From a virus: DNA of 64,000 bases. Positions 17,693 to 55,155 of the stretch are shown in pieces (the stretch's first letter is position 1; every line of letters begins with the position of its first letter). A model generated the notes under the pieces. The model made no database searches, was not told where the DNA came from, and saw nothing but the letters and a program-made list of their open reading frames with translations. Location: IMG/VR virus record IMGVR_UViG_3300020221_002917, positions 1 through 64,000 of that record; one strand, 5' to 3'. Position numbers and translations under genes: made by a program.

Positions 17693-18322
17693 TTATAAAT
17701 TAAACCTTCCCTTAAAAGCTAAGAAATTATCAATCACTTCATCTTCTGAAAGAGGGCGATTGTAGCAGGTAATTAAAGAAGAAGCAAAAGATCTACTATT
17801 TTTATTGTTTGAATCAAAATAAAATCTTAAAGTAGTACAAACACAAGGGTTTTTTCTTATTAGCGTAATATTCTTCCATTCGTTGACTCCAAACAATATA
17901 GTTGAAGATAGAATTCTAGTATCTCCTACAAAAATACCGTTATAATAAGAAGAAGTATTATCCCACCCTCTGCCGAAATTACCAGAAAATATAAAACCGT
18001 TAACCACAGAAGGTCTAGTATCAATAAATGTTGGATTAATACCGTTTTGACCATCCAAGGCTTTGCACCATATTGAGATGGTATGTAGTTTTATACTGTT
18101 TGGTTGTATTATGCCCGAACCTCTGCTTTGATTAGACTTTGTTATAACACATCTAACACCGTCTACTGTATCTAGATGATAATCGCCTATTAACTCACAA
18201 TTTTTTTTATTTCTAGATAAATCTTTTACTATATTTCCAGAAATATATGACTTTGGGTTTGTAGGGTCTATACAAAATTCTAACCCACTAGTAATAAGCC
18301 TTGGATTAAAGCCCGCACTCAT
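17693..18322 (-). CDS. LamG/concanavalin-A-like fibre protein
   Basis: A 209-residue protein. The opening (LITSGLEFCIDPTNPKSY, then VKDLSRNKKNCELIG) and later segments (HTISIWCKAL, WKNITLIRK, LRFYFDSNN, ITCYNRPLSEDEVIDNF) follow the order of single-domain LamG/concanavalin-like proteins found in T4-like phages, where they are linked to carbohydrate binding. It overlaps the start of the upstream fibre gene's stop by one base and precedes the 17-residue-repeat fibre by 1 nt, so it is co-expressed with fibres. Lectin function is inferred from fold resemblance. Confidence 0.7.
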   Translation of the reverse strand: MSAGFNPRLITSGLEFCIDPTNPKSYISGNIVKDLSRNKKNCELIGDYHLDTVDGVRCVITKSNQSRGSGIIQPNSIKLHTISIWCKALDGQNGINPTFIDTRPSVVNGFIFSGNFGRGWDNTSSYYNGIFVGDTRILSSTILFGVNEWKNITLIRKNPCVCTTLRFYFDSNNKNSRSFASSLITCYNRPLSEDEVIDNFLAFKGRFNL

Positions 18323-21297
18323 TACACCTCTACTACTAGGGGTGGAATATCCTTTCGAATGGCAGTGAAGGACCAGAAGAACTTATAAGCTTTATTGCTA
18401 AACAGATCTTTAGAGGTCTTAACTACAAAGTAACTTTCTTTTGTATTAGTATCTATTACGATATCGTCCACCCAGAGTTGTTTTTTGTGTTTGAAGTTCG
18501 TCAATTGAACATTGAGATTACTATCATGTACTAAAGCATAGACATAAGAAGGTAGAACGATTTTTGCAGTAGAGCCAGTAATTTCTGCTTCACCAGTCAG
18601 TCTTATACCGTGATAAGGAGACTCCAATGATCCGTATTGTAGATGTTTGTTGCTATCAATAGGGTGTTTGATATAGAATGACTTTGTGCCGGCTGCAATA
18701 TGTGTAAAGTAACCAATAGATCCTTCGATATCTCCATTAACGTGTAGAGCGCGATCAGGTGTTGAATTTAGTATACCTACTCTTTGAAGTGACTTATCAA
18801 CAAACAATACATGATTAGTTGGATCGACAGTCAAATCATTTGTTATGACTAACGAGCCACCTTCACCACCAACCTCTATAATAGTACCACCAGATACCTT
18901 TAAGAATTCTGTACTAGCTTCAGATATATCGAGCCAATAACTACTATTAAGTGACATCGATGTATAGACACTATCCCAATCGGCAGATGTTTGTGAAACT
19001 GATGTATAGGTTGAATCCCAGTCAGCTGATGTTTCGCTTACTGATGTGTATGTACTGTCCCAATCGGCGCTATTTAAGCTTACAGAAGTATAAGTCGAAT
19101 CCCAATCGGCGCTGGTCTCACTTACTGATGTGTATGTACTGTCCCAATCGGCGCTATTTAAGCTTACAGAAGTATAAGTCGAATCCCAATCGGCGCTGGT
19201 CTCACTTACTGATGTATAGGTTGAATCCCAGTCAGCACTGGTCTCACTTACTGAGGTGTAAGTGCTATCCCAATCAGCACTGGTTTCACTAACAGAAGTG
19301 TAGGTTGAATCCCAATCAGCCGATGTTTCGCTTACAGATGTGTATGTGCTATCCCAATCGGCGCTGGTCTCGCTAACGGAAGTATAAGTTGAATCCCAGT
19401 CAGCTGATGTTTCACTTACTGATGTATAGGTACTATCCCAATCAGCTGAAGTCTCACTTACAGAAGTATAGGTACTATCCCAATCAGCAGATGTTTGTGA
19501 AACCGATGTATAGGTACTATCCCAGTCAGCCGATGTTTCGGAGACCGATGTGTAAGTTGAATCCCAGTCAGCGCTAGTCTCACTTACTGATGTATAAACG
19601 CTGTTCCAGTTTGCACTATTTTCTGTAACTACTGTATAAAGGCTTCCTCCTCCGCTCCAACCAGCTGAATTTGCTTGAACATTAGCATATACACTATCCC
19701 AGTCAAATGAAGACCCGCCACCAGGTACTAACACTGTACCAGATAGGTTAGCTCTTAGAGTGTCTATTGTAAAATAATAATCATCCCAATTAATATTTGC
19801 AGCAGATGCAGGTTCTGTTGTAAGCCCAGAGAATAATGTCCATGTACCAGGGCGGCCTTGGCCTGCTCTTCTAATCAAACCTGTATGTTGGTACCCAGCA
19901 TCATCGCCAATTTCTGTAAATGCGCCAACCCATCCGATATCTAAAACATTTGCTGGGTTATCTTCTGCAAAATAAATTATATTATCTTTAACTACTAAGT
20001 GATCTACATCTATTTGTGCGGCAGATCCAGAGATTGTTAGGTTACCTGCTATACTAACACTACCTGGGAAAAATACACTTGTCGGGAAACTTAAAGTAAC
20101 GCTATTATCTCTGTTATTTGTACCTGCTGTTACAACGGTTATTTGGTGTGTTGTACCATAAATGTCGTAAATTGAACTGTCCCAATCGGCACTTACTAGG
20201 CTAACTGAACTATATGTACTATCCCAATCAGCAGATGTTTCTGAAACAGAAGTATATGTACTATCCCAATCGGCGCTATTTAAGCTTACGGAAGTATAAG
20301 TCGAATCCCAATCAGCTGATGTTTCTGAAACAGAAGTATATGTACTATCCCAATCGGCGCTATTTAAGCTTACGGAAGTATAAGTCGAATCCCAATCAGC
20401 TGATGTTTCAGATACCGATGTATAGGTACTATCCCAATCAGCAGATGTTTCTGAAACAGAAGTATACGTACTATCCCAGTCAGCCGATGTTTCTGAAACA
20501 GAAGTATACGTACTATCCCAGTCAGCTGATGTTTCGCTTACAGAAGTATATGTAATATCCCAATCAGCACTGGTTTCACTAACGGAGGTATAAGTTGAAT
20601 CCCAGTCAGCCGATGTTTCTGAAACAGAAGTATATGTACTGTCCCAGTCAGCTGATGTTTCACTAACGGAGGTATAAGTTGAATCCCAGTCAGCACTCGT
20701 CTCTGAAACTGAAGTGTAAGTACTATCCCAATCAGCCGATGTTTCAGATACCGATGTATATGTACTATCCCAGTCAGCTGATGTTTCGGAGACCGATGTA
20801 TACGTTGAATCCCAATCAGCGCTTGTCTCTGAAACCGATGTATATGTACTATCCCAGTCAGCCGATGTTTCGGAGACCGATGTGTAAGTTGAATCCCAGT
20901 CAGCACTAGTTTCACTTACAGAAGTATAAACGCTGTTCCAGTTTGCACTATTTTCTGTAACTACTGTATAAAGGCTTCCGCCTCCATTCCAATCAGATGA
21001 ATTTGTTTGAACTGAAGAATAAACTGATGCCCAGTCATCACTATTTGTATTTAAGTGATTCTCAAAAATGGTAAACCCGGTAATATTTCTATTAGCTACG
21101 ATATTTCCACCACTTATAGAAACTGTTGAATTGTTAGTAGCAGGTGTACTAAACTCTAACCCACCAAGATCATTATATTGGATTTGTACGCTAAGATCGG
21201 CAGAAACCCCTGCATATTTTGTCGAAGAGCCAGTATTGCTCCTATCGAAAAATATATAACCTTCACCCGGAGATATTAATACATTACGGTCAGCCAC
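18322..21297 (-). CDS. Long tail fibre with two arrays of 14-residue tryptophan repeats
   Basis: A 991-residue protein with a GTG start. Residues about 95-360 hold roughly 18 copies, and about 560-790 roughly 16 copies, of SADWDSTYTSVSET-type units. A middle domain (about 365-555, AQIDVDHLVVKDNIIYFAEDN) separates them. The C-terminal about 190 residues (SFYIKHPIDSNKHLQYGSLES, HGIRLTG, FFWSFTAIRKDIPPLVVEV) form a conserved domain that recurs in the neighbouring 893-residue protein. The repeats are probably a trimeric shaft. A late promoter box lies 4 nt before the GTG. Confidence 0.75.
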   Translation of the reverse strand: MADRNVLISPGEGYIFFDRSNTGSSTKYAGVSADLSVQIQYNDLGGLEFSTPATNNSTVSISGGNIVANRNITGFTIFENHLNTNSDDWASVYSSVQTNSSDWNGGGSLYTVVTENSANWNSVYTSVSETSADWDSTYTSVSETSADWDSTYTSVSETSADWDSTYTSVSETSADWDSTYTSVSETSADWDSTYTSVSETSADWDSTYTSVSETSADWDSTYTSVSETSADWDSTYTSVSETSADWDITYTSVSETSADWDSTYTSVSETSADWDSTYTSVSETSADWDSTYTSVSETSADWDSTYTSVSLNSADWDSTYTSVSETSADWDSTYTSVSLNSADWDSTYTSVSETSADWDSTYSSVSLVSADWDSSIYDIYGTTHQITVVTAGTNNRDNSVTLSFPTSVFFPGSVSIAGNLTISGSAAQIDVDHLVVKDNIIYFAEDNPANVLDIGWVGAFTEIGDDAGYQHTGLIRRAGQGRPGTWTLFSGLTTEPASAANINWDDYYFTIDTLRANLSGTVLVPGGGSSFDWDSVYANVQANSAGWSGGGSLYTVVTENSANWNSVYTSVSETSADWDSTYTSVSETSADWDSTYTSVSQTSADWDSTYTSVSETSADWDSTYTSVSETSADWDSTYTSVSETSADWDSTYTSVSETSADWDSTYTSVSETSADWDSTYTSVSETSADWDSTYTSVSETSADWDSTYTSVSLNSADWDSTYTSVSETSADWDSTYTSVSLNSADWDSTYTSVSETSADWDSTYTSVSQTSADWDSVYTSMSLNSSYWLDISEASTEFLKVSGGTIIEVGGEGGSLVITNDLTVDPTNHVLFVDKSLQRVGILNSTPDRALHVNGDIEGSIGYFTHIAAGTKSFYIKHPIDSNKHLQYGSLESPYHGIRLTGEAEITGSTAKIVLPSYVYALVHDSNLNVQLTNFKHKKQLWVDDIVIDTNTKESYFVVKTSKDLFSNKAYKFFWSFTAIRKDIPPLVVEV
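18945..19610 (-). repeat. 42-bp coding repeats, C-terminal array
   Basis: About 16 tandem 42-bp units encoding 14 residues each. An 84-bp double unit is perfectly duplicated (19037-19120 and 19121-19204), a sign of recent expansion. Confidence 0.9.
20180..20950 (-). repeat. 42-bp coding repeats, N-terminal array
   Basis: About 18 tandem 42-bp units. An 84-bp double unit is perfectly duplicated (20234-20317 and 20318-20401). Other units differ by silent changes. Confidence 0.9.
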
Positions 21298-21301
21298 GTA
21301 A

Positions 21302-21309
21302 TATTTATT
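21302..21309 (-). promoter_or_regulatory. Late promoter box before the 991-residue fibre gene
   Basis: AATAAATA on the minus strand, 4 nt before the GTG at 21297. Confidence 0.55.
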
Positions 21310-21338
21310 ATTTTTACGGCAATTTGATGCTATTTATT

Positions 21339-24020
21339 CTATATTTCTATTTGCAAAGCGGGTATATCTTTTCTAATAGCGGTAAAAGACCAATAAAAGC
21401 TAAATTCTTTATTCTTATCGAATAACCCATGGTTTCTCTTCACTATAAAGTAGTTTTCCTCTGTATTAATTTCGGACACATACAAAGGTTTTGTATGGTT
21501 TATATTGGTCAACTGTACATTTGTATCGGATTTATGTACTAAATCTTTGATATAATCCGGTAATTTAATTGCACATTGTGTTTTAATAGTGGCTTTACCG
21601 GTTAATCTTACCCCATGGTAAGGTGACTCCAATGATCCATATTGTAAGTGTAAACCTTGCTTGGAAGGATGTGGAATATAGAATGACTTGGAGGCAGCTG
21701 CCACATGATTAAAGTAACCGGTACCTCCAACATTAATATCGTCGATAACTGTAGCTGCGCTTAACAATACATTGTTGGTAGAAAGATAATGAGTAGTGAC
21801 ATAAATCCCACTTAACGTATTCCATGAATTATAAACCGAATCCCACTCTGCGCTTGTTGTATTAACACTGGAGTAAACTGAATCCCAATTCGCAGAGTTT
21901 GGAGTAACTGAATTATAAACACTATTCCATAAATTACTATTACCACCGGGAGCGGTAATAAGTTGATTAGAACTTATTGCACCATTTACAGTAAGCTCGG
22001 CTGTGGGGTAACTGGTATTAATACCAATACTACCGCGTCCATCAGGCTCTGCATTCCCAACATGCAATACTTCTACACCATCACCGTCAAAAAAGCTTGC
22101 AATATCATAAGGGCCCTTTGCCTGATAAACATATAAGGCTGGACCCTTACCGACATTAATAACAGACAACGCACTCGTTGTAGTAAAAATAGTATCTACA
22201 AAATAAGAATTACCCAGGGCGGTTAAATTACCATTTACCGTTAAATCTTGAAATATATTTAAACTTCCAGTAATACTACCACCAGATAATGAAAGAAAAT
22301 TATCCCCTGTATATTGTTGAATGTCATTTTTAATGGACAATAACGATACCGTGTTACCACTTGTTATCGATAAATTGTAGGGCACTGGGTCCCAAATTAA
22401 TGACTGAACACCTGCTGAAGTCTGTGCAAATATATCTAGAAGATCTACCCCGGCTGAAAGTATACTAGTGGAAACATTTAAATCACCATCATTTATAGTA
22501 TCTCCAATAATAAGTGTATTTTCTGGTACTACAAATGTATTTCCTACTGCAGAAAGTGTGACACTGCCTAGATAGATTGAACTATCGCTTACATATAAGT
22601 CTTTCCATCTCTTGGTTGGTGATCCTAAGCTATGAACATCAGTTTCACACGGTAAAACATCCCCACAAAACTCTACTTCGCCTTTTACTGTTAACCCATT
22701 TACTGTGAGATGACCATCCATTACACCGCCTTCGGCGTATTGTACTGCTACAGAGCCTCCACCGCCCCCACCCATGTTAACTGCATATTTTTTCGCCTCT
22801 CTTAATGCAGCTTCCACTGCCCTGTCTACATATTTCTTAATACCGTCTTTAACTTTTGCCGTGCTTTCATTTTGTTCCACTATTTCTCTAAGTTTGGTAT
22901 CTATTTCATGGGTGGTCTCCAGATCTTTCTTTAGTTTTTCAATAACATACTCATCTAAATTTTTTCTGGAGTCTTTTTTAAATTCATCAGCAAACTCTTT
23001 CTTAAATGAATTAAGTTTTGTTTGTATATTTTCCCAGATTAATTTTTCTACCTCATCTGCGGCCTCTACAACAACTGCTTTTTTCTGAATTTCTTTTTGT
23101 TTTTCCAGTAATATCTTATTTTGTTCTTCTAGTTGTAATTCTAGATTACGAGCCTTCTCAATAGCCTTGGTATACTCCTGTTTTTGTTGTACAAGTTCTT
23201 TATCTTCGGTAATAACCAGTTCAGGTACTTTAATATCTTCTACCAGCTGGGGCGGTCTTTCCTTGGGACCTGTAAATTCCACGTACGATTTTGAATTTGG
23301 ATCCAATGTTTTTAAATTAAACATGGAAATAGGAGTCTCCTGATCTTCTACTACAATAATTTTAAATTTTACCTTGGTATATAAATCTCCATTTTCAAAT
23401 AAAAGATCTACAAATACAAATTTTTCCCTATTTTTTTCAAAATATTCACAAATAAGTTCGGCATCCTGGGTTTTAAATATGCCAATATTAAACAGTTGAT
23501 CGGTAAACGAACTACAAAAGAAAATATTCTCAGCTTCCCCGCTTTCAATTAAGGTCATCGGGACTGTCGTATTGACAGCAACCTCATATATACTACCCTT
23601 CTGTAAAGGTTGATATAATTTCATTGGTTCTTGTTCAATTACTGGGGTAGAAGGAACAATTACCTCTTTAATAGGTTCTTCTACTTCCTCTACAATCTGT
23701 ATTTTTGGTTTTTCCTTAACAATTACCGGTTTTACATAAGAGGGATTAAAGATTGATTCTAATTTAGAATTATCAGTCAATACAACACGAAAGATAGACT
23801 TTTTATAGAGTTTATTGCCAATTTTTACATCAATATTGACATATTTTTCGCTATTTTCTTCATTATATTCTAATATTAACGGTTTGTGTTTGGTATCAAA
23901 TATAGCAACATTGAAAAGATGTTCATTTATATTAGTACAATACAAAATATTTTCCGAATCATTAGAAATGACTAATGTAAACGGTATTTTGTTGTTTAGT
24001 GTAACAGATTGTAAACTCAC
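21339..24020 (-). CDS. Tail fibre protein with duplicated N-terminal domain and coiled coil
   Basis: An 893-residue protein with a GTG start. Two related domains of about 105 residues occupy residues 1-105 and 140-250 (KIPFTLVISNDSENILYC / TVPMTLIESGEAENIFFC; SIFNPSYVKP / SMFNLKTLDP). A long coiled coil follows (about 270-410, Glu/Lys rich), then a glycine run, beta-rich modules (SLGSPTKRWKDLYVSDS), three tryptophan modules near residues 690-745, and the conserved C-terminal domain (SFYIPHPSKQGLHLQYGSLES ... FYWSFTAIRKDIP). The N-terminus probably attaches to the baseplate and the C-terminus presents or trimerises the tip. These roles are inferred. Confidence 0.75.
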   Translation of the reverse strand: MSLQSVTLNNKIPFTLVISNDSENILYCTNINEHLFNVAIFDTKHKPLILEYNEENSEKYVNIDVKIGNKLYKKSIFRVVLTDNSKLESIFNPSYVKPVIVKEKPKIQIVEEVEEPIKEVIVPSTPVIEQEPMKLYQPLQKGSIYEVAVNTTVPMTLIESGEAENIFFCSSFTDQLFNIGIFKTQDAELICEYFEKNREKFVFVDLLFENGDLYTKVKFKIIVVEDQETPISMFNLKTLDPNSKSYVEFTGPKERPPQLVEDIKVPELVITEDKELVQQKQEYTKAIEKARNLELQLEEQNKILLEKQKEIQKKAVVVEAADEVEKLIWENIQTKLNSFKKEFADEFKKDSRKNLDEYVIEKLKKDLETTHEIDTKLREIVEQNESTAKVKDGIKKYVDRAVEAALREAKKYAVNMGGGGGGSVAVQYAEGGVMDGHLTVNGLTVKGEVEFCGDVLPCETDVHSLGSPTKRWKDLYVSDSSIYLGSVTLSAVGNTFVVPENTLIIGDTINDGDLNVSTSILSAGVDLLDIFAQTSAGVQSLIWDPVPYNLSITSGNTVSLLSIKNDIQQYTGDNFLSLSGGSITGSLNIFQDLTVNGNLTALGNSYFVDTIFTTTSALSVINVGKGPALYVYQAKGPYDIASFFDGDGVEVLHVGNAEPDGRGSIGINTSYPTAELTVNGAISSNQLITAPGGNSNLWNSVYNSVTPNSANWDSVYSSVNTTSAEWDSVYNSWNTLSGIYVTTHYLSTNNVLLSAATVIDDINVGGTGYFNHVAAASKSFYIPHPSKQGLHLQYGSLESPYHGVRLTGKATIKTQCAIKLPDYIKDLVHKSDTNVQLTNINHTKPLYVSEINTEENYFIVKRNHGLFDKNKEFSFYWSFTAIRKDIPALQIEI

Positions 24021-24630: not shown

Positions 24631-25548
24631 TTACTGTCTGACCGTTTTTGTAAAATATTTAAACTCGTCAATTAACGATTTGTCTAAAAGACTATGATTA
24701 CTCGACCTTGTTGGATTGATATCAATACCACCACGTCTTACATATAAACAGCTAACAACTAGCTCTTCGGGAAAAAACTTTCGAAAAATTCTCATATAAA
24801 TAGTTTCACAAATCTCTTCGTGAAAATGACATTCATCTCTAAAAGAAACAATATATTGTAAAAGAGAAGTTGGATTAATTTCATATTTACCCTTGTAGTG
24901 AATGTAAACATCTCCCCAATCAGGTTGAGAAGTAACTCTGCAATTACTTTTTAATAATGCGGAGTGGAATCTTTGTACTTTAGATTCATTAATTTTTTCA
25001 GCACTCAAAATATCGGGATTTTCTGTGTAAAAAGGCGCTTTAATAGTAGTTACATCAATAAAATTCTCTAACGTCGGGTAGTCTTTATTTGAAAAGACCG
25101 GTGGATAATACAAACCATCATCTACTGATTTGGTAGATCTTACATATACCTTGACGTCAGTTTCTAAAAGCTTAGAAAGATCAGATGCAATCGTATCTTG
25201 AAGTTGCATTAAAATAGAAATAATATTTCCTTCAAACTTTTGCATATTAAACGAATTCATATACAGCTTTATCGACTTTGACTCTACGATGTATTTGTTT
25301 TTAGCCGGGTAAACAATCTTAGCTATAGCAGCAATAGGCATACCCTCTTTTGTTAAGCAGGAAACTTCATAAGCATTCCAAATATCATAACCACCAAACG
25401 GAACATCCTCATCTGTAATTCCTAAATGCTTTCTATTGTTAATTCTAGGCTCTCTTACCAACAACGTCGGGTCATATGTTGATTTATAACCGGTTATTTT
25501 ACCGAGATGCTTTGAAATATTGCTATTATCTAAAATGGTATTGCTCAT
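24631..25548 (-). CDS. queF: NADPH-dependent 7-cyano-7-deazaguanine (preQ0) reductase QueF
   Basis: A 305-residue two-module (proteobacterial-type) QueF that reduces preQ0 to preQ1 with two NADPH. It shows the diagnostic E-S-K-S-x-K-L-Y-x-N-S-F motif at about 89-100, SNCRVTSQPDWG with the catalytic Cys203 and Asp210 (the 7-residue spacing matches E. coli Cys190/Asp197), FRDECHFHEE at about 236-245, and YVRRGGIDINPTRS near the C-terminus. All key residues are present. It is the last gene of a minus-strand cluster that includes a DpdA-like transglycosylase, so its preQ1 probably goes into phage DNA rather than only into tRNA queuosine. Confidence 0.93.
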   Translation of the reverse strand: MSNTILDNSNISKHLGKITGYKSTYDPTLLVREPRINNRKHLGITDEDVPFGGYDIWNAYEVSCLTKEGMPIAAIAKIVYPAKNKYIVESKSIKLYMNSFNMQKFEGNIISILMQLQDTIASDLSKLLETDVKVYVRSTKSVDDGLYYPPVFSNKDYPTLENFIDVTTIKAPFYTENPDILSAEKINESKVQRFHSALLKSNCRVTSQPDWGDVYIHYKGKYEINPTSLLQYIVSFRDECHFHEEICETIYMRIFRKFFPEELVVSCLYVRRGGIDINPTRSSNHSLLDKSLIDEFKYFTKTVRQ

Positions 25549-25563
25549 TGAATATATTTTATA

Positions 25564-26148
25564 CTACTTTGTATAAAAATCTATAATACTTTTAATCATC
25601 CCTATTCTCTCTTCTACTGTTCCTTTCAGTCTTACAACTTTATCTTTCCATTGAAATTGATCTAGATAGTAATTCTCATACTTGTCTATAATATTATTTC
25701 TAAAATCTACGTCAACACTTCTCTCACCGTCATCGACTAATTTTATTTCATGGGGATCGGGATAAAATATAATATCGTATTTATGATAAAAACGATTCCA
25801 ATAGTTTAACGCTTGTGACCAGATTTGCTGACTTACAAGTTTTTTATCATAAAAATATTCTGTAAATACCAAACCATCTAGTAGGCATCTATCATGTACA
25901 TTACCTTTACATCCCGGCCAAAGTTCATAATCGTATTTAAATAAATTCTCTAGTTCCTTATTTAAAATTAACAATTGAGTTATATCGTTTGCACCTTCTT
26001 CATTTATCCTAACATTAAACTCCCTCTTTACTAATCTAGTAACTTCTTCAATATAAAAAAACTGATCCATAATACCTCTAGTCTGCTTCATTTGCTTGAG
26101 CAAAGTAGTCTTACCCGAACACTGCGGCCCAGTAAAAGTAATATTCAC
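25564..26148 (-). CDS. P-loop nucleoside/nucleotide-kinase-like ATPase
   Basis: A 194-residue protein with Walker A GPQCSGKTT (residues 7-15), an HDRCLLDGLVFTEYF motif like the DRx substrate-binding segment of deoxynucleoside and NadR-type kinases, and Asp/Arg-rich C-terminal helices that may form a lid. This domain type (AAA_28/NadR-like) often phosphorylates nucleosides or small cofactors. It lies between queF and a DUF1599-type gene, so a role in nucleotide supply or base modification is plausible but not shown. The start is the ATG 24 nt after the previous stop. Confidence 0.7.
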   Translation of the reverse strand: MNITFTGPQCSGKTTLLKQMKQTRGIMDQFFYIEEVTRLVKREFNVRINEEGANDITQLLILNKELENLFKYDYELWPGCKGNVHDRCLLDGLVFTEYFYDKKLVSQQIWSQALNYWNRFYHKYDIIFYPDPHEIKLVDDGERSVDVDFRNNIIDKYENYYLDQFQWKDKVVRLKGTVEERIGMIKSIIDFYTK

Positions 26149-26171
26149 TTACTCTATTATAACTACAACTA

Positions 26172-26516
26172 CTACTTACACCACTTTTTTCTTTTAACTA
26201 TTTCTGCAATAATACAATATACAGAGGTATCGCTAAAAGCATCAAAAATTGGCTCATTTGCCGCTTCAAATGTTTTTTTTCTTAAAACCATATTAATAAG
26301 CCGTTGAATTTTGTCGTTTAACCTTACTACAATTGCTGATATAGACGCTATTATGTCTTCTTTTTTGTGAAGATCTGAGCCAAGACTAATATTGTGGGGC
26401 CCATAATCAAACTGCTTCTTACAAAAAACTTCATATTGCTCTTTCTGTATTTTTTTAAACTCTTCACACGTCTCTGGATACGTGGACTCTACAATTTTAA
26501 TATAATCTTCTCCCAT
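26172..26516 (-). CDS. DUF1599 / nucleotide-modification-associated domain protein
   Basis: A 114-residue helical protein. The central motif DYGPHNISLG, followed by a long segment ending VVRLNDKIQRLINMV and a final CIIAEIVKRKKW, follows the arrangement of PF07659 (DUF1599), described as a nucleotide-modification-associated domain in phages with altered bases. The N-terminal C-E-E-F...FCKKQFDYG part also recalls MazG-like helices. It overlaps the GMP reductase start by one base (26516). Placement in a deazaguanine cluster supports the assignment; the biochemical activity is unknown. Confidence 0.6.
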   Translation of the reverse strand: MGEDYIKIVESTYPETCEEFKKIQKEQYEVFCKKQFDYGPHNISLGSDLHKKEDIIASISAIVVRLNDKIQRLINMVLRKKTFEAANEPIFDAFSDTSVYCIIAEIVKRKKWCK

Positions 26517-27481
26517 TACATTCTTACCCCGTAAGATACATTATGTAGGTTAAGAGCTTTAAGATTGCAACCACCTGCGTAGCTTATTGCACTCTGTAAA
26601 TCTTGTTCAATTTCCTCTAGCTTCTCTAAATAGGTTGTTGTATCAGCTTCCATAAGCTTCATTGTACCTTCAATATTTCTTTTTTCAATTTTATTGTGAA
26701 TACTTGCTGAGCCGTAGTATTGTTTGTATCTATGCCCGGAGGAATCCTTAACTATTGGGGCTGGGCTATCTGAACATGCAGCAAATATAGAACCACACAT
26801 TACCATTGTAGCTCCTGCAACAATAGCTTTAGAAATATCACCGTTATTGCGTATACCACCATCGGCGATAACAGGTAAATTGTTGTCTTGGGCACATTCC
26901 ATTATACAACTAAACATAGGATGGGTAAATCCTGTTTTATCCTTAGTAGTACACGCATAACCACCACCAATACCTACCTTTACGGCGTCTGCTCCAGAGT
27001 CTCTTAAATATTCTACCCCCTTATACGATGCTACATTACCCGCAATTACTCTAACTGCTGGGAGTCTATCTTTAATAAACTTAATTTGACCACAAACCTT
27101 AGAGTGATGACCGTGGGCAACGTCAATAGTTATGAAATCTAACCTACCAAGCTGAGAAATATGTGATAATTCGTTAATAATGTGCCTATCTTTATCCTGT
27201 ATACCGATACTAATTGAAACATTATGAAAGTTCTGCAAATTTGCATACTTAACAAAGTTTAAAATGTCTATATCAAATCTATGCATTATATAAAAGTAGT
27301 TGTTTTTATCTAACATCTGACAAGTTTCATAGTCTACACAACATTTCATGTTAGCGGGTATAACAGGTAACCTGAAAACCCGATCACAAAACTGTACATG
27401 TGTGTCAATTTCTTTTCTCGACTTAACAGAATTGAAATTAGGCTTTAAAAAAACATTTTTATAATGTAAAGAAACGTCCAT
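26516..27481 (-). CDS. guaC: GMP reductase (GuaC/IMPDH family)
   Basis: A 321-residue TIM-barrel enzyme. Visible motifs are NMKCCVD, DVAHGHH, VIAGNVAS, GADAVKVGIGGGYACTTKDKTG with the catalytic Cys at about 177, DGGIRNNGDI and CGSIFA. The CTT-x-x-x-TG loop fits GMP reductase, and no CBS domains are present. GMP reductase converts GMP to IMP with NADPH and release of ammonia. In this cluster it could reprocess guanine released when DpdA swaps the base in DNA, or lower the guanine nucleotide pool (inference). It follows the formyltransferase by 1 nt. Confidence 0.88.
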   Translation of the reverse strand: MDVSLHYKNVFLKPNFNSVKSRKEIDTHVQFCDRVFRLPVIPANMKCCVDYETCQMLDKNNYFYIMHRFDIDILNFVKYANLQNFHNVSISIGIQDKDRHIINELSHISQLGRLDFITIDVAHGHHSKVCGQIKFIKDRLPAVRVIAGNVASYKGVEYLRDSGADAVKVGIGGGYACTTKDKTGFTHPMFSCIMECAQDNNLPVIADGGIRNNGDISKAIVAGATMVMCGSIFAACSDSPAPIVKDSSGHRYKQYYGSASIHNKIEKRNIEGTMKLMEADTTTYLEKLEEIEQDLQSAISYAGGCNLKALNLHNVSYGVRM

Positions 27482-27482
27482 A

Positions 27483-28052
27483 TTAGCCCTTTAAAACATT
27501 ATAAGCGGAAAAAAAACTTTTCCACAGATCAAAAGCCGTATCGTGTAATTTTTCATAGACCTCATTAAGAGTTAACCCCTCTATACTAATGCCTTGGCTC
27601 ATTAAAATCTCTCCTTCATCAACTTCTGGTGTTACTTTGTGAATAACACAACCGGCTAGCTTGTAGTTATCCCTGTAGGCACGCTCTTGAGGGTTAAACC
27701 CTTTCAACTCTGGATATTTGTCTATTAATCCCGGGTGTAGATTGTAAGTTTCATACTTTTCACAAATTTGTTTTGGTATAATTCTTAAATAACCGTGTAA
27801 AGTTAGTATAGGGTTCTTAAATTTACTTAAAATATTTTCATATTCTTCTACTGTTGGCTTAGAAGTAAGTGTGTGCAATATTTCTCGATTTAGTTTATTG
27901 GTTCTAAACTCTGTTACATATCTTAAAGCAGAATTAATCTTAGATATAGTAGGATTATTTGTAATGATAGCATCAGGATACACCCCTATTTCATTGCTTA
28001 AATTATGAATCTCTGTTCCTGTTTGAGAGAAAAATGCTACCCAGGGTCTCAT
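27483..28052 (-). CDS. dpdN: Formyltransferase, likely preQ1-in-DNA formyltransferase (DpdN-like)
   Basis: A 189-residue PurN/Fmt-fold enzyme. The catalytic triad is visible: Asn104 and His106 in YNLHPGLI, and Asp145 in TPEVDEGEIL, equal to the N-H-D triad of glycinamide ribonucleotide formyltransferase. The fold uses 10-formyl-tetrahydrofolate. It overlaps the DpdA-like gene by ATGA and shares its operon with queF. A formyltransferase named DpdN has been proposed to make 7-(formylamino)methyl-7-deazaguanine in phage DNA. The context fits that role well; a PurN role in purine synthesis is the main alternative. Confidence 0.7.
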   Translation of the reverse strand: MRPWVAFFSQTGTEIHNLSNEIGVYPDAIITNNPTISKINSALRYVTEFRTNKLNREILHTLTSKPTVEEYENILSKFKNPILTLHGYLRIIPKQICEKYETYNLHPGLIDKYPELKGFNPQERAYRDNYKLAGCVIHKVTPEVDEGEILMSQGISIEGLTLNEVYEKLHDTAFDLWKSFFSAYNVLKG

Positions 28053-28855
28053 CTACGAATAATTTTCTTAAACATTGTAGTATTGTACTTAACCATCTCT
28101 AATTGTTCAGGTGTAAATTCATGACTAATCAGATCTGCAAGCTTAGTAGAAGGTTTAGTGTCTAGCCCATAATCCGCATCATACTTTATTTCATGAATAG
28201 CGGCAACAATTGGATTGCTAGTATCACAAGACACAATATTGTGAATACCTCTATCGACATAGTAACGAAATTCTTTTGCTAGTGAGCATCCCAACAAATG
28301 ATGAGGCTTATCCCACCTCCATAGACCATTATTTATTAAATCTTGAATAAAGCGCTGACGACCCGAACACCAACGCTCTAAATGGTGCCAACCGCGACCT
28401 GTTACCTGGTAATAACTAAAATCAAAACTTATTGCAACCATATCTGCGTTATCAGATATAAACTTATAACACTCGGTTAACTCTTGCCAGTTTTTACCCT
28501 GCACAGCACCAATGGCCTTGGTTAGAAAGGTGTTTTTTAAATCTTGCATTTTGTTTGTAAAGCTTTTAAAGCTTTGTATCGTACCGGTCATATCTTCCAG
28601 TTCATCTGGAACTATGAACATATTAGGTTCTAGTTCTAAAGCTGCTTTATAGAAAGCCTCTGCGTCAAATGCTTTGCCTAATTCAAATATAGAATTGTCT
28701 AGAAGTACTTCTCGATTGTAAATAGGTCTTGCTGTCTTATAAAACTCCTTGTAATCAGGGTGTTTATCTAATAAATGTACTAAACAATAGTCAAAATCAT
28801 TGTAATCTCTAGAATAATCTAACAGTGAAATAGGGGTCTCATGAGAAACTTTCAT
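28049..28855 (-). CDS. dpdA: DpdA-like 7-deazaguanine DNA transglycosylase
   Basis: A 268-residue TGT-like barrel protein. Features typical of the DpdA family are EVLLDNSIFELG with Asp53 as probable acid/base, MFIVPDEL (about 79-86), GAVQGKNWQEL, HLLGCSLAKEFRYY, and NIVSCDTSNPI with Asp211 as the probable nucleophile. The zinc motif of bacterial tRNA-guanine transglycosylases is absent. DpdA enzymes exchange guanine in DNA for a deazaguanine base after replication, protecting phage DNA from restriction. Overlap with the formyltransferase and proximity to queF support this. The subfamily cannot be decided by eye. Confidence 0.75.
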   Translation of the reverse strand: MKVSHETPISLLDYSRDYNDFDYCLVHLLDKHPDYKEFYKTARPIYNREVLLDNSIFELGKAFDAEAFYKAALELEPNMFIVPDELEDMTGTIQSFKSFTNKMQDLKNTFLTKAIGAVQGKNWQELTECYKFISDNADMVAISFDFSYYQVTGRGWHHLERWCSGRQRFIQDLINNGLWRWDKPHHLLGCSLAKEFRYYVDRGIHNIVSCDTSNPIVAAIHEIKYDADYGLDTKPSTKLADLISHEFTPEQLEMVKYNTTMFKKIIRR

Positions 28856-33716: not shown

Positions 33717-34781
33717 TTACAACTTAATGTCGTCGAAAACGTCTTCTGTAATCGTTGTATCGCGCGCCGCAATTTTGTATGCACCTATTTCTGCCTCCTG
33801 TGGGGCTACTTGGACTTTACTGCTGTCTAGATAACTGTCCAACCAACCTGCAATTGGATTTTCTTTTTGATTAAAGACTTTTTTGTAACCGAGAGACCGT
33901 AGTCTATTATCACAAAGCCATTTTGCATATGACCCTAAGACCTCAGCATTTAAACCTAATAATGAACTTTTACTAAAAAGATATTGTGCCCATTCGATTT
34001 CATTTTTTGTTGCTTGTTCATATATAGCATAAATCTTATCTTCATTCTTTTTTACGGTTGATGTAAACCCTTCTTTGTCTTCATCTCGAAGAATTTTAAT
34101 AAGATTTTGAGTTATAGCAAAGTGTTGAGCTTCATCTCTTTGAATAAACTTAATAATTTTAGCATTTCCTTCCATTTTACCTCTGTACCCAAAGTAAAAT
34201 GAACAGGCAAAACTAACATAGAACACTAGTCCTTCCATTACATTGACTGCTAGAATGCAGTCAAAAATCTTTTCCTTAACATCTTTTTTATCTTCCCCAC
34301 CTAAGATTTTATCGTAATTTTTACGAATTAGTTCTGCTCTACTTACTATTTCTTTATCATCCATTATACTATCAAAAAATTTAGATGCATCTGGATGTAC
34401 GTTGTTGAGAAGATAGCTATAGCTGTAGCTATGGATCCCTTCAAACCTTTGCCAGGTGTTCATACATATTTCTAGTTCCGGGCTAGAAACATAGTCTTTT
34501 AACGAGTGTATAGATCTAGATAGCATACTATCACCTAATGTTTGAAACTTTAAATTTGTATCAAACACAAATCTTTCTTCCGGTGTTAGATCTTTATAAT
34601 CAGCTCTATCTTTTTGCAGGGAAATTTCATGAGGCCACCAAAAAAATTCTTCTTGTCTTTTGAATAACTCAAAAAATACCGGATACTTAAATCTATCATA
34701 ACGTTGTAAATTTAAGTCTTCCCCAAAAAATAAAGGCTGCTTAGTGTGATCGATGTTTTTTAAATTTAATACAGATTTCAT
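33717..34781 (-). CDS. nrdB: Ribonucleotide reductase small subunit (class Ia)
   Basis: A 354-residue R2 protein that generates the tyrosyl radical for dNTP synthesis. The di-iron ligands are present: Asp84 (LGDSML), Glu114 and His117 (FEGIHSYSY), a Glu in NVMEGLVFYVSF, and Glu/His in RDEAQHF. Tyr121 is the expected radical tyrosine four residues after the His. The C-terminus ends DDIKL, the tail that binds the large subunit. It overlaps nrdA by ATGA, giving coupled translation. All key residues are intact, so the enzyme should be active. Confidence 0.95.
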   Translation of the reverse strand: MKSVLNLKNIDHTKQPLFFGEDLNLQRYDRFKYPVFFELFKRQEEFFWWPHEISLQKDRADYKDLTPEERFVFDTNLKFQTLGDSMLSRSIHSLKDYVSSPELEICMNTWQRFEGIHSYSYSYLLNNVHPDASKFFDSIMDDKEIVSRAELIRKNYDKILGGEDKKDVKEKIFDCILAVNVMEGLVFYVSFACSFYFGYRGKMEGNAKIIKFIQRDEAQHFAITQNLIKILRDEDKEGFTSTVKKNEDKIYAIYEQATKNEIEWAQYLFSKSSLLGLNAEVLGSYAKWLCDNRLRSLGYKKVFNQKENPIAGWLDSYLDSSKVQVAPQEAEIGAYKIAARDTTITEDVFDDIKL

Positions 34782-37036
34782 AGTTTACATGCCCCACTAG
34801 AACAAGAGTCTTCTTTTGTAATTAACTGCTCCTTATCACCATCATCTGTATTGTTATAATACAAACTAATCAAACCCATGCTATATGCATACATAATTTC
34901 TTTCATTACTTTAGCATCTGGTAAAGTGTGGCCATCATAATGACTGTAATTATAGTATATGTTAGTAGAAATAGCCATGTCTATATATTTTTGCATTACG
35001 GCGTTAAGATTAATAAGACCTGTATTATCTGGTAGACTAAAAGCTAACTCATAATTTTGATCATATTTCCCTATGCCTGGAACCAGTACAGGCAATTTAC
35101 CCATCTTAGACATTTTGTAGGTAATGAGTGAGCGAATAGGCTCTACCCCATTAGTAGAATTTTGAATAACGGAACTAGATTCACAAGGCATTATGGCTGA
35201 AACTGTGCTGTGTCTTAAGCCGTGTTTTTTAATTTCCTCTCTTAATGTACCCCAATCTAGTGATAGTTTTCTCTTAACAATCTCTGTAGTGTTTTTCTTA
35301 AAAGTATCTATAGGTAGTATGCCCTTAGAATACTTTGTTCGATCAAATTTTTCACATTTACCTTTTTCTTTTGCAAGAGTCAAACTAGCTTTTAAAAGAT
35401 AGTATTGAAAATGCTCCATCCATTCATCAATTATTGGAAGAGCTTTACTAGAAGTGTATTTTACGTCGTTTTTAGCTAAAAACGCAGCCAAGTTTGTAAT
35501 ACCTATGCCTAGGCTACGTCGGTGCTTAGCAAAATTTTCTGCAGCTTTATTAAAATAATCTTGTACATCTATAATTTCATCTAAAAATCTAACTATTAAC
35601 TCACACACCTTTTCTAATTCATTCCAATTCTTAATTTCTAACATATTCACTGCTGATAAAATACACATTCCTATTTCCGCTTCCTGATCATGAAAATCTT
35701 TTAAAGGAATATAAGGGTGAATAATTTCTGTGCACAGATTTGACATGGTGACTTGATCTAGCCATGCAACGTGTTCGTTTGCCGTATCGACGTTTAAAAT
35801 ATATATTCTACCGGTTTCTACTCTTTCTTTAATTATAAGTGAAAATAGCTTTCTTGCAGAAATCTTCTTTTTAAATTTAATTTTCTTATCTTGCTCACAT
35901 TCTGCATATATTTTATCAAAACCAGGTGTTCCCCATGCTCCCCAAAGGTGAGGAACTTCGTTGGGTGAAAATAATGTTACGTTTTCATTTTTTATAACCC
36001 TGTCATAAAATAGTTTTGACATTCCGACAGTATAGTCTAATTTTCTGACTCTGTTATCATCAGTACCAGCATTATTCTTTAATACAACTACATCCTCAAT
36101 CTCGTAATGCCACCACTGTATATTAACAGTAGCGGAACCTCCTCTTATAGAATTTTGCTGCCACGCTTTAACCGATGCTTCGAATATCTTTAAAAAGGGG
36201 ATAACCCCTGTATGCACAACTGAACCACCATTAACCGGGGTGCCCATTGCCCGGACACGAGAAATATCTATACCAATACCACACCTACTAGCCGTGGCTA
36301 AAGATACTGCAGTACCGGAAGCAGTAATAGATTCTTTTGTATCATCTACACCAATTAAGCAGCAGCTCGCGTACCCTCTTGATACTGTTCTAACCCCGGC
36401 CATAATTGGTGTTGGTAGATTAATTTTATGCTTAGAAATAGCATCGTAAAATCTTTTAATGTATATTAACCTATCCTCAGGATTATAATTAACAAAAGCA
36501 TATGCAGCAATTAGAATATAAGCAAATTGAGGAGTTTCAAAAATAGTACCTGATATTCTATTTTTAATTAAATATTTGTCACACAGCTGCTTAATACCTG
36601 CATATGTAAAAATAAAATCTCTATCATGATCAATAAACTCACCCATTTTATTAATTTCGTCTTCTGTATATTTTTCTATAATAGAAGGGTCATAAATCTT
36701 TCTTCTAATTCCACCATAAATCATATCTAACAATCTTGGAGCGTGTTTGCCTCCCCAAACGTCTTTTCGTAACTGATAGTTTAATAGTCTAGAAGCAACA
36801 TACTGATAGTTAGGTGATTCTACTGAAATAAGGTTAGAAGCTGCTTCAATAAGACTTTGATGAATTTCTTTAGTGGTAACATTTTGCACCATATTGAGCT
36901 TGGCGTTTATTTCTATATCCGATAGGCTTACCCCGTCTAACCCTTCAATTGACCATCTGATTACTCTGTGAATTTTTTCAATATCAAATTTTTCTGCATT
37001 TCCATTACGTTTTTTTACAAAGATCTGATTATTCAT
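34778..37036 (-). CDS. nrdA: Ribonucleotide reductase large subunit (class Ia)
   Basis: A 752-residue R1 protein. It has an N-terminal ATP-cone (residues 1-90), a substrate-site Cys in ASCCLIGVDDT, the NLCTEI motif (Asn, Cys, Glu of the active site), a second redox Cys in GMCILSAVN, PCESSS, and a C-terminal CSSGAC pair that accepts electrons from thioredoxin or glutaredoxin. It makes dNDPs for phage replication, together with nrdB and the dCMP deaminase at 59.8 kb. A minus-strand AATAAATA box stands further upstream (about 37.05 kb), so this gene may keep an untranslated leader. Confidence 0.95.
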   Translation of the reverse strand: MNNQIFVKKRNGNAEKFDIEKIHRVIRWSIEGLDGVSLSDIEINAKLNMVQNVTTKEIHQSLIEAASNLISVESPNYQYVASRLLNYQLRKDVWGGKHAPRLLDMIYGGIRRKIYDPSIIEKYTEDEINKMGEFIDHDRDFIFTYAGIKQLCDKYLIKNRISGTIFETPQFAYILIAAYAFVNYNPEDRLIYIKRFYDAISKHKINLPTPIMAGVRTVSRGYASCCLIGVDDTKESITASGTAVSLATASRCGIGIDISRVRAMGTPVNGGSVVHTGVIPFLKIFEASVKAWQQNSIRGGSATVNIQWWHYEIEDVVVLKNNAGTDDNRVRKLDYTVGMSKLFYDRVIKNENVTLFSPNEVPHLWGAWGTPGFDKIYAECEQDKKIKFKKKISARKLFSLIIKERVETGRIYILNVDTANEHVAWLDQVTMSNLCTEIIHPYIPLKDFHDQEAEIGMCILSAVNMLEIKNWNELEKVCELIVRFLDEIIDVQDYFNKAAENFAKHRRSLGIGITNLAAFLAKNDVKYTSSKALPIIDEWMEHFQYYLLKASLTLAKEKGKCEKFDRTKYSKGILPIDTFKKNTTEIVKRKLSLDWGTLREEIKKHGLRHSTVSAIMPCESSSVIQNSTNGVEPIRSLITYKMSKMGKLPVLVPGIGKYDQNYELAFSLPDNTGLINLNAVMQKYIDMAISTNIYYNYSHYDGHTLPDAKVMKEIMYAYSMGLISLYYNNTDDGDKEQLITKEDSCSSGACKL

Positions 37037-41453: not shown

Positions 41454-41930
41454 CTAAGAAAAACTATGTTCTTTAGTAGTGTAATATTTAGTCTCTTCCC
41501 AAGGAAAAACAACCCATCTCTTGTCAAAGAGTTCTTTACCAAAATAATTTGGCTTATACAATTCATTCTGCCTATATATTAGTGTAATTGAAACCATCTT
41601 AATAGGCAACAAATAATTTTCAATAAATTTTAAGGTACCCCCTGTATCACAAATATCATCAACAACATACACAATCTCCTTATTTCTTAATTCCTGTTTA
41701 TCTGGGTATTGAAACATTATTTCCGTTGACTTGTTGTGCTCAGAGTAGCTCTTAATGCCACAGCTATAAAAGCAGCTAATGTTTTTGAGGTGCGATATTA
41801 TAACCGCTGGTACTAAACCGCCTCTAGACAGGCCTATGACTGCGGAATTACTATCTAGATGCTTTGTTTGATTGTGAATAATTTTTAATTGATCTGTAAC
41901 TTCATTCCAAGTTAAATACAGTTTATCCAT
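41454..41930 (-). CDS. Purine-type phosphoribosyltransferase
   Basis: A 158-residue type I phosphoribosyltransferase. The PRPP-binding loop IVYVVDDICDTGGTL is at about 86-100, with an upstream VIGLSRGGLVPAVIIS segment that fits the pyrophosphate loop. Size and the LSRGG pattern point to hypoxanthine/xanthine/guanine salvage enzymes of the Gpt/Hpt type. In this phage it could salvage guanine set free by DNA transglycosylation and feed GMP to the phage GMP reductase; the base specificity is not proven by sequence. Confidence 0.78.
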   Translation of the reverse strand: MDKLYLTWNEVTDQLKIIHNQTKHLDSNSAVIGLSRGGLVPAVIISHLKNISCFYSCGIKSYSEHNKSTEIMFQYPDKQELRNKEIVYVVDDICDTGGTLKFIENYLLPIKMVSITLIYRQNELYKPNYFGKELFDKRWVVFPWEETKYYTTKEHSFS

Positions 41931-42471: not shown

Positions 42472-42798
42472 TTATTTATTATCTATAAACTTCTTATACA
42501 GATAAGCTATAGACGGGTATGTAAACCATGCCAAAAAAATAAATTTGTAGTTTATTCCAAAAAGAAGAGTGAAAAGACTGCCGATTAACAAAGAGAGCCA
42601 GAATGAAGAGCATATATAACAGCTTTGTAGTTTGCCTAAAATAGGAAATTTAAACATTATTGCAACATCAAAATCTTCCGCACTATTTATACACTTACCA
42701 AACAAAAGTTGACCAATAGTAATTTTAATAGGACTATAAAACCAAATTAAAAGACCAGTAAGAGTTACTCCGAGCCCTATAAAATAATAACTATACAT
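42472..42798 (-). CDS. Small membrane protein with Cys motif (108 aa)
   Basis: Three hydrophobic segments (about 4-22, 62-80 and 84-100). Between them, KLQSCYICSSFWLSLLIG resembles the C-x-x-C-x-x-F-W motif of DUF1360-type membrane proteins. It overlaps the dehydrogenase gene by 8 nt. It could be a holin because lysis-type genes are near, but cysteine-bearing DUF1360-like proteins are not known holins. Function open. Confidence 0.6.
   Translation of the reverse strand: MYSYYFIGLGVTLTGLLIWFYSPIKITIGQLLFGKCINSAEDFDVAIMFKFPILGKLQSCYICSSFWLSLLIGSLFTLLFGINYKFIFLAWFTYPSIAYLYKKFIDNK
42473..42480 (-). promoter_or_regulatory. Late promoter box (AATAAATA)
   Basis: On the minus strand, 6 nt before the ATG at 42466; it overlaps the end of the upstream membrane-protein gene. 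Confidence 0.5.
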
Positions 42799-43564
42799 AA
42801 AGTTTTCTGTGTTGTTTGTTTAGATTAAAAATATATTTTAACAACTTGCTATTAGAAAATCTATATAAATGTAAAATATCTTTATTAAAACAATGCCCAC
42901 CCCATCCAAATCTACCGTCTGTACCTGGTACAACTGTATGTGATTTGCCTATTCTGTTATCATTTAATAAAATCTCTACAAAAGTACTAAAGGTAGATTT
43001 GATTTTGCTCTTTTTAAAAATTTTATAAAGCTCATTAAAAAAAGTTATCTTTGATGCCAAAAACGAATTACTAGCATACTTGACCAATGAAGCTGTTTTA
43101 ATATCGGTGTAAATGACTTTTTTAACCTTTTTAAGTCGGCTCTTAAGCAAGCTGCTTACCACTATACAGCTAGATTTTGAACCGCCTAAGATAATAAATT
43201 TCTGGGTCTTAAAATCTTTTATATTAGTGCGGTGCGAGAGAAATTCTGGATAATGTATTACAGAAATGTTCTTGTTGACCCGTTCTATTTTTTCATAAAT
43301 TAAAGGAAGCGCGGTTGATTTACAGCAAACAATATTACCAGGTAATAGTTTGTTTATTTTCTTAACAACAGATTGAAGTAAGTAAAAATTGTCTTCTTTA
43401 GGAGTGTCCAGCGAAACAAAAATTGTTTTAAATTTTTGACCTTTTAAATCTTCTAGTTTTATTCTACTATATCTTGGGTCTACTATTACACATTCATCTT
43501 TTTTAAATATAGATACAACAGCAGAGCCCACATATCCCTTGCCTACAATTAGAATCTTATTCAT
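42791..43564 (-). CDS. Short UDP-glucose/GDP-mannose dehydrogenase-like protein
   Basis: A 257-residue protein with the NAD-binding start GKGYVG (8-13), the family block PEFLSHRTNIKDF, the central dimerisation helix KYASNSFLASKITFFNEL and the catalytic-Cys segment GWGGHCFNKD (Cys at about 225; the canonical form is GFGGSCFPKD). Full-length enzymes have 390-430 residues; the whole C-terminal UDP-sugar-binding domain is missing here. It could still oxidise a sugar nucleotide in a dimer, or be a regulatory remnant. It opens the sugar-related island and overlaps both neighbours by 8 nt. Confidence 0.75.
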   Translation of the reverse strand: MNKILIVGKGYVGSAVVSIFKKDECVIVDPRYSRIKLEDLKGQKFKTIFVSLDTPKEDNFYLLQSVVKKINKLLPGNIVCCKSTALPLIYEKIERVNKNISVIHYPEFLSHRTNIKDFKTQKFIILGGSKSSCIVVSSLLKSRLKKVKKVIYTDIKTASLVKYASNSFLASKITFFNELYKIFKKSKIKSTFSTFVEILLNDNRIGKSHTVVPGTDGRFGWGGHCFNKDILHLYRFSNSKLLKYIFNLNKQHRKLYV

Positions 43565-49323: not shown

Positions 49324-49939
49324 CTGCTTGTATACCTCTAAAGCTAGCTACCGCTTTTAGCCCCCACTCAGATCTAGGGTGAGGGGTTTGCATATATTCA
49401 TATTCATACATTTTCAAAAGATTAATCTTTTCCTCTATTTCTTGTTCGGACAATTCCAAAAATATATTAGGGATAAAGCTATGTGCTTCTGTTTGCGGGG
49501 CTTGATCTGTAGAGGATATAATCTCCCCTGTAATTAGTCTCGATGCTTTACATGGCCCTATAGGTCTTATGGCTGCAACAACCGCTTCATAGCATAATTT
49601 ATGTGTTTGATGGTTGTCACCCCAGTGGGTGGTGTAAACGATATCTATATGATTATTAGATACAAGTTCTTCTATTCTTGTGATGAGCTCGAGCTTATTT
49701 GAATGAATATTGTGTTCGTTAAAAATATCTAGATAAAACACCTCGTTATAACCTAACTTATCTTTAACTTTTTCTATAGTGTGAAATTGATGAGTGTTCC
49801 TTTCGTTAGTTAGGTTCTTAGGCCCCATAATAAACGCAACACTAACATGATTGTTCTGCTCTAAATTTCTTTTTATAGCCCCATAAAAGCCTAATATTTC
49901 ATCATCTCCATGAGGAACTATAACCATAGTTTTGACCAT
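49271..49939 (-). CDS. PIG-L/LmbE-type deacetylase
   Basis: A 222-residue protein with the zinc motif VPHGDDEILG (His10, Asp12/Asp13), a later THWGDNHQTHK segment with metal-binding His, and the C-terminal NLLKMYEYEYMQTPHP helix typical of the family. PIG-L enzymes remove N-acetyl groups from amino sugars, as in GPI anchors, mycothiol and aminoglycosides. It is first in the operon that continues with the radical-SAM and amidinotransferase genes. Freeing an amine that the amidinotransferase then uses would be a logical order (inference). Confidence 0.82.
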   Translation of the reverse strand: MVKTMVIVPHGDDEILGFYGAIKRNLEQNNHVSVAFIMGPKNLTNERNTHQFHTIEKVKDKLGYNEVFYLDIFNEHNIHSNKLELITRIEELVSNNHIDIVYTTHWGDNHQTHKLCYEAVVAAIRPIGPCKASRLITGEIISSTDQAPQTEAHSFIPNIFLELSEQEIEEKINLLKMYEYEYMQTPHPRSEWGLKAVASFRGIQAGVKYAEGYFCAREIIKK

Positions 49940-49995
49940 AAATTAATTATAATATAAACCTAGTTGTAATCAATGATATACATCTAAATACGTTT

Positions 49996-51387: not shown

Positions 51388-51425
51388 GCTTTATTTACCT
51401 GTAGTTTTTATTTTTTATACTACTG

Positions 51426-51433
51426 TATAAATA
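51426..51433 (+). promoter_or_regulatory. Consensus late promoter box (TATAAATA)
   Basis: A perfect box ending 4 nt before the ATG at 51438. No room remains for a ribosome binding site. Confidence 0.6.
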
Positions 51434-51437
51434 TTTT

Positions 51438-53571: not shown

Positions 53572-53572
53572 A

Positions 53573-55116: not shown

Positions 55117-55155
55117 ACATTGAAATAAAATTGTTTTTGACTAAATTATTTATTA

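Follow-up and report, generated by a model that had tools for sequence, protein, structure and literature searches.

Formylated 7-deazaguanines in phage DNA are reportedly not new: 7-(formylaminomethyl)-7-deazaguanine (fdPreQ1), the formyltransferase DpdN and the DpdA3 subfamily are said to have been published already by Cui et al. in 2023, and dADG is said to have been given as the firehammervirus base by Crippen in 2019. Here we describe an operon in a stretch of viral DNA of 64,000 nucleotides (the window; positions 1 to 64,000 of IMG/VR record IMGVR_UViG_3300020221_002917), which shares a formyltransferase, QueF and DpdA with the predicted DpdN/fdPreQ1 route. We consider it likely, from its genes and their comparison with relatives, that this operon replaces guanine in the phage DNA by fdPreQ1. 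Two viruses that encode proteins of the QueF type, Dp-1 and HVTV-1, have been shown to contain dPreQ1 (Hutinet 2019, PMC6884629), and the deoxyguanosine (dG) of firehammervirus is reported to be completely replaced (PMC10273834).

The window is part of a virus record of 79,604 bases, in which open reading frames (ORFs) and family matches were read. The operon consists of six genes on the minus strand, transcribed from 28855 to 24631 and separated by -4, 1, -1, 23 and 15 bases, in that order (aa, amino acids; E-values and families in brackets):

28049..28855, minus strand: DpdA3-like DNA-guanine transglycosylase (268 aa), the operon's first gene (transglycosylase fold, homology, invariant Asp)
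27483..28052, minus strand: formyltransferase (FT), predicted preQ1/dPreQ1 N-formyltransferase (DpdN-like), 189 aa (Formyl_trans_N, N-H-D triad)
26516..27481, minus strand: GMP reductase (GuaC type), 321 aa, with Cys177 in GIGGGYACTT (PRK05458 score, match to structure 1ypf)
26172..26516, minus strand: small all-helical protein, 114 aa (phrog_1485, of unknown function, 2.2e-12; 26 sequences aligned)
25564..26148, minus strand: P-loop nucleoside/nucleotide-kinase-like protein (NK), 194 aa, GTG start (AAA_28, phrog_2107)
24631..25548, minus strand: QueF (305 aa), a preQ0 nitrile reductase with two domains and the operon's last gene (QueF_N and QueF domains)

A first-pass annotation made from the sequence had described five of these genes as a cluster on one strand. 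All five are present as minus-strand frames in a span of 4,225 bp and the ATGA overlap between the DpdA and FT frames is there as described, whereas the sixth gene, the P-loop kinase-like ORF at 25564-26148, had been overlooked. The same annotation had missed a phosphoribosyltransferase at 41.5 kb and had assigned no role to GMP reductase.

The cultured Flavobacterium phage vB_FspM_immuto_2-6A (immuto; NC_055915) has DpdA, FT, kinase and QueF in the same order and on the same strand, with proteins 34-48% identical to those of the window, and it also has a phosphoribosyltransferase; its FolE, QueD and QueE are close to the cluster. Unlike the window, immuto has a PRA-PH protein gene preceding DpdA, and neither GMP reductase nor a DUF1599-like gene was found in its fetched cluster. 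In the Campylobacter firehammervirus CPt10, a DpdA relative (~46% identity) is directly followed by an NK relative (~36%), and FolE, QueD and QueC are located elsewhere in the genome. CPt10 differs from the window by having no match for QueF or FT, and no Campylobacter phage record among the 50,697 phage records searched matches either of these two proteins.

Transglycosylase, formyltransferase and nitrile reductase

No Pfam family was over the cut-off for DpdA, and a sequence-only search of solved structures with its profile recovered no tRNA-guanine transglycosylase (TGT), which was found by fold search alone. The AlphaFold model, built from 33 sequences (mean pLDDT 93.6), aligned with a TGT at Z 18.3 over 229 residues (2.9 A, 15% identity), the best match being a TGT with preQ0 (2pwv), tied with one carrying preQ1 (2z1x). 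In Foldseek, TGTs likewise made up the best solved structures among the matches listed (E 4.9e-9), so that the TGT-like nature proposed in the first pass is borne out by structure. All 35 aligned sequences keep D53, D84 and D211. Going by motif order, the aspartates of DpdA may correspond to the catalytic D102, D156 and D280 of TGT. The protein is 41.7% identical to the DpdA of immuto and 45.8-46.6% identical to its Campylobacter phage homologues (91-98% query coverage). Only 19 of the 50,697 phage records contain homologues: 14 from Campylobacter phages, four from Flavobacterium phages of the immuto type, in which they are annotated DpdA, and a distant one from Weizmannia (25%).

FT matches Formyl_trans_N (4.6e-15). 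The N-H-D triad that had been read in it is real: N104, H106 and D145 do not vary across an alignment of 30 homologues. In a wider set of 130 frames the Asn is kept in 129, the His in 129 and the Asp in 128; the exceptions are a gapped row and an Ala. Nine phage records match FT; in five of them the match extends over 80% or more of the protein, namely in four immuto records (47.8%) and one of faecal origin (26.2%). Its linkage to QueF and DpdA suggests a DpdN-like formyltransferase, with preQ1 or dPreQ1 as the predicted substrate.

QueF carries both Pfam domains over the cut-off (QueF_N, 117.5 bits; QueF, 75.2 bits). It aligns with the Vibrio QueF 3bp1 (E 1.3e-48) at Cys203, at the Asp seven residues later and at the ESKSxKLY motif, which we take to be the catalytic Cys and Asp and the NADPH motif, respectively; the catalytic residues noted in the first pass are thus all present. 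Since they are intact, preQ1 formation is favoured over the activity of the amidinotransferase relatives. The two groups are described as hard to separate on sequence similarity alone (Hutinet 2019, PMC6884629).

Co-occurrence with DpdA and the supply of preQ0

Loci were gathered in scans that used either DpdA or FT as the bait, and the two named phages and the window were added to them. Three of the bait scans kept the best 80 of 533, 584 and 587 relatives. Merging DpdA loci with identical last 200 residues reduced 283 loci to 201 distinct ones, of which we counted the 116 with at least 6 kb downstream and left out the 85 with less than 6 kb. Within 9 kb of DpdA, NK was found in 114 loci, QueF in 108 and FT in 82. 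FT was accompanied by QueF in 81 of its 82 loci and QueF occurred without FT in 27, a one-way dependence that is to be expected of an FT whose substrate is the QueF product. Seven loci had neither FT nor QueF: CPt10 (L003), two contigs whose DpdA is 96-98% identical to that of CPt10, and L173, L268, L279 and L285. GMP reductase was present anywhere in the fetched stretch in 32 loci and the 114-aa protein in 48. The order of the operon recurs in dozens of distinct contigs, and the arrangement is therefore not due to chance.

Two relatives had a gene resembling flavin-dependent tryptophan halogenases between DpdA and FT (L010:10804-12387 and L012:4008-5585; Trp_halogenase, 254.6 and 266.7 bits), the second of them together with an asparagine-synthase-like gene; no further contig among 293 sequences contained the halogenase-like gene (tblastn, E 1e-10). 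This insertion possibly corresponds to a further base modification. In one other relative, a gene for a radical-SAM/SPASM protein was located between NK and QueF (L056:12703-13956).

NK was the most constant partner of DpdA, being absent only from L279 and L285. Its homologues were found in 23 phage records, including, by accession, 18 of the 19 DpdA records. It matches AAA_28 (5.9e-15) and the thymidylate kinase family phrog_2107 (1.8e-29), and its profile weakly matches structures of thymidylate kinase, deoxynucleoside kinase, NadR and guanylate kinase, the top rows (RecA fusions) being P-loop repeats. We do not claim a substrate because these matches are weak and spread over several kinases. 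Since firehammervirus has NK but neither QueF nor FT, we link NK to base exchange rather than formylation. It could be a kinase of guanine nucleotides that serves salvage or, if the exchange takes place at the nucleotide level, a 7-deaza deoxynucleoside monophosphate (7-deaza-dNMP) kinase. For the neighbouring 114-aa protein, the DUF1599 label given in the first pass was not confirmed, with no PF07659 match in the record of the window and matches below the cut-off (16.4 and 14.4 bits) for homologues in two of eight records. Its model is helical (pLDDT 85) and the fold search gave nothing significant, with a best Foldseek E of 1.6 and a best VIA-align Z of 7.5 over 57 residues, a level common for helical models according to the note of that tool. 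A MazG-like fold, of the all-alpha NTP pyrophosphohydrolase kind, was considered for this protein and gained no clear support; no MazG entry appeared among the matches listed.

As the first-pass annotation had observed for the window, FolE, QueD and QueC had no match, here across the 79.6-kb record, and no QueE was identified there, three radical-SAM matches in frames of 385-464 aa not having been tested individually. That annotation had left the source of preQ0 between the host and the rest of the genome. The latter is favoured by a contig of 229,717 bases, G001, which is 99.88% identical to the window over 19,885 bases and carries DpdA at ~79 kb, QueC at ~155 kb, FolE at 174 kb, QueD at 176 kb and QueE at ~178 kb. 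FolE, QueD and QueC of G001 exceed the Pfam cut-offs, QueC also exceeds that of TIGR00364, and the five best NCBIfam models for its QueE are all QueE. The phage thus most likely makes its own preQ0, and a supply from the host is unlikely, given all four genes in a near-identical contig. Of 23 DpdA records, some of which may be fragments, 14 contain a QueC match, 16 a FolE match and 17 a QueD match. Directly downstream of QueC in G001 is a class-II glutamine amidotransferase gene (L067:6238-6927; GATase_6, 32.6 bits, cut-off 27), a pair that resembles a split Gat-QueC and may supply ammonia to QueC. A second AAA_28 kinase-like gene, a distant relative of NK (25% identity), is located near the preQ0 genes (L068:14664-15359).

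Possible guanine handling and other features of the window

Outside the operon, a further gene could take part in the handling of guanine:

41454..41930, minus strand: purine phosphoribosyltransferase of the xanthine/guanine type (158 aa), a proposed partner in guanine salvage (Pribosyltran)

It is over the cut-off of PF00156 (Pribosyltran, 43.3 bits) and its structure matches are purine phosphoribosyltransferases (1vdm, E 1.5e-15; xanthine-guanine phosphoribosyltransferase chains, E 3.8e-6). PF00156 matched in 20 of the 23 DpdA records, this being a broad family and several records being near copies. Homologues of the window protein itself were restricted to 13 of the 50,697 phage records (four immuto, five Cellulophaga, two Brevundimonas and two uncultured). 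Eleven of the 13 come from three host groups, and the one record per group that was checked contained a DpdA match in each case, with E 2.3e-114 in immuto and distant matches in phiST (1.2e-13) and MaInes (2.6e-6). In MaInes, FolE adjoins the phosphoribosyltransferase gene and has an annotated deoxynucleotide monophosphate kinase next to it, with QueC, QueD and QueE 9-11 kb away. Directly upstream of the DpdA relative without NK in L279, we observed genes for a hypoxanthine-phosphoribosyltransferase-like protein and MazG (L279:6889-7989).

Computation shows the family memberships, the folds, the order of the genes, the conserved residues and the presence of preQ0 genes in the near-identical G001; from these we infer the exact base, the substrates of FT and NK, the route of salvage and the extent of replacement, as follows. 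GTP would be converted to preQ0 by FolE, QueD, QueE and QueC, whose genes lie ~75-100 kb from the operon in this phage, and QueF would reduce preQ0 to preQ1. DpdA would swap guanine in DNA for the 7-deazaguanine, with the release of one guanine per exchange, and FT would transfer a formyl group from a formyl-folate to the aminomethyl group, either before the base is inserted or afterwards. The freed guanine could be turned into GMP by the phosphoribosyltransferase and GMP into IMP by GMP reductase, and NK could phosphorylate a guanine-type mononucleotide. We propose that guanine salvage is in this way coupled to guanine replacement. If the 229.7-kb genome (34.8% GC) were fully exchanged on DNA, ~80,000 guanines would be freed per genome, or ~13 mM in a cell of 1 fL for an assumed burst of 100, in which case some guanine route would be needed. 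We found no literature linking DpdN or deazaguanine with a formyltransferase, a phosphoribosyltransferase or GMP reductase, as judged by titles and the starts of abstracts, with Cui 2023 outside the scope of the search. As far as this literature goes, the association of a kinase and salvage enzymes with DpdA is undescribed, that key study lying outside the comparison.

The remainder of the window includes genes that provide context for the supply of deoxynucleoside triphosphates:

33717..34781, minus strand: class I ribonucleotide reductase beta subunit (328.1 bits, cut-off 346)
34778..37036, minus strand: class Ia ribonucleotide reductase alpha subunit (891.1 bits, over the cut-off of 813)

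At 18322-24020 there are two large ORFs (991 and 893 aa). The first consists of numerous SVSETSADWDSTYT repeats that are nearly identical to one another, and it is in this repeat region that near-identical contigs no longer align continuously with the window. A UDP-glucose/GDP-mannose dehydrogenase-type ORF (42791-43564) and three radical-SAM matches (~48520-56983) may mark a block of genes related to sugars or metabolites. The window contains no Rfam match or tRNA gene. A 614-aa ORF at 990 had no match in phages or PHROGs, and its label as a terminase is a guess.

Alternative readings and implications

The formylated-preQ1 prediction, as put forward in the first-pass annotation, is supported by comparison (the TGT fold, the QueF residues, the failure of FT to reach the PurN cut-off, the FT-QueF linkage in 81 of 82 loci and the gene order of immuto), not by chemistry. 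A number of observations weigh against it. D145 of DpdA, invariant in 33 sequences (a set without immuto and CPt10), is not conserved in CPt10, and one of the 130 FT rows carries Ala for the triad Asp. Curated cut-offs are missed by QueF (TIGR03138, 266.1 against 293.45 bits), by the QueE of G001 (best model, 55.1 against 260.1 bits) and by the phosphoribosyltransferase, whose best of five families is the xanthine phosphoribosyltransferase NF006613 (67.4 against 138 bits). GMP reductase, as named in the first pass, has GMP reductase 1ypf as its nearest solved structure (E 9.3e-71), which upholds the assignment although its PRK05458 score (330.9 bits) is just below the cut-off of 344; it is neither specific to nor constant in these operons because it occurs in 73 phage records from a wide range of groups and in only 32 of the 116 loci. 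A PF00156 scan found no phosphoribosyltransferase in CPt10, phiST has no QueC match, and the uncultured MT835497 has the phosphoribosyltransferase and no DpdA or QueC match. L144 is the sole locus in which FT is present and the fetched stretch lacks QueF. Because the DpdA sequences share ancestry, the counts cannot be treated as independent trials; the 23 DpdA records, which include near copies (the window's record, G001 and G002), are not phylogenetically independent either, and the frequency of FT is inflated by its use as bait in one scan.

True PurN, raised in the first pass as the competing identity of FT, would make this protein a glycinamide ribonucleotide transformylase that boosts purine synthesis, its position in the operon being incidental. 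FT shares the Formyl_trans_N family and the N-H-D triad with PurN, PurN (TIGR00639) is its best-scoring named family, and among solved structures it matches PurN chains best, with 5cjj spanning profile positions 6-172. However, FT scored 50.2 bits for a cut-off of 150.1, the model was matched at residues 75-172 only, the top two solved matches cover just positions 60-156 and 23-159, and the gene recurs between DpdA and NK/QueF. Given a score under the curated cut-off and the linkage to DpdA and QueF, we rejected a PurN role as the principal interpretation and regard it as highly unlikely. An active FT that leads to a final base other than fdPreQ1, either because another product is modified or because later genes elaborate the formyl group, also appears improbable. 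The N-terminal motif of FT has an invariant G12 and E14 where PurN carries a phosphate-binding Asn, the substrate is not readable from sequence, and the extra enzymes encoded between DpdA and FT in two relatives (halogenase-like in both, asparagine-synthase-like in one) would fit such an elaboration; against it, FT tracks QueF and the operon of the window contains no recognised additional modifying enzyme.

A different timing of the exchange is possible, though we hold it to be unlikely. Here DpdA, as a minimal TGT-fold enzyme, would exchange the base in a guanine mononucleotide such as dGMP before replication, NK would phosphorylate the 7-deaza-dNMP and charge it towards the triphosphate for incorporation by the polymerase, and the phosphoribosyltransferase and GMP reductase would recycle guanine and drain the guanine pool. 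The near-constancy of NK, including in firehammervirus, the short length (268 aa) and acidity (isoelectric point 5.8) of DpdA, and the nucleotide-pool enzymes that accompany it (GMP reductase, a MazG-type protein in L279, PRA-PH in immuto) agree with this doubtful scenario, which, if true, would explain the complete replacement of dG in relatives. Known TGT-family enzymes act on polynucleotides, which counts against it, as do the two of 116 loci without NK; moreover, NK could equally be a GMP/dGMP kinase for salvage. DpdA exchange is also treated as taking place at the nucleic-acid level in PMC12783734. Z-DNA phages, in which substitution is at the nucleotide level (PMC12783734), offer no more than an analogy: nucleotide metabolism genes are tied in them to whole-base replacement, with the difference that their enzyme is PurZ and the key enzyme of the window has a TGT fold.

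Under the fdPreQ1 interpretation that we prefer, the modified DNA would belong with the phage 7-deazaguanines, which lower the susceptibility of DNA to restriction (PMC6884629). The near-constant kinase-like gene beside DpdA and a phosphoribosyltransferase that is rare in phages point to either the handling of freed guanine or an exchange at the nucleotide level. This DpdA family makes it possible to test by what mechanism some phages come to replace their guanine completely.

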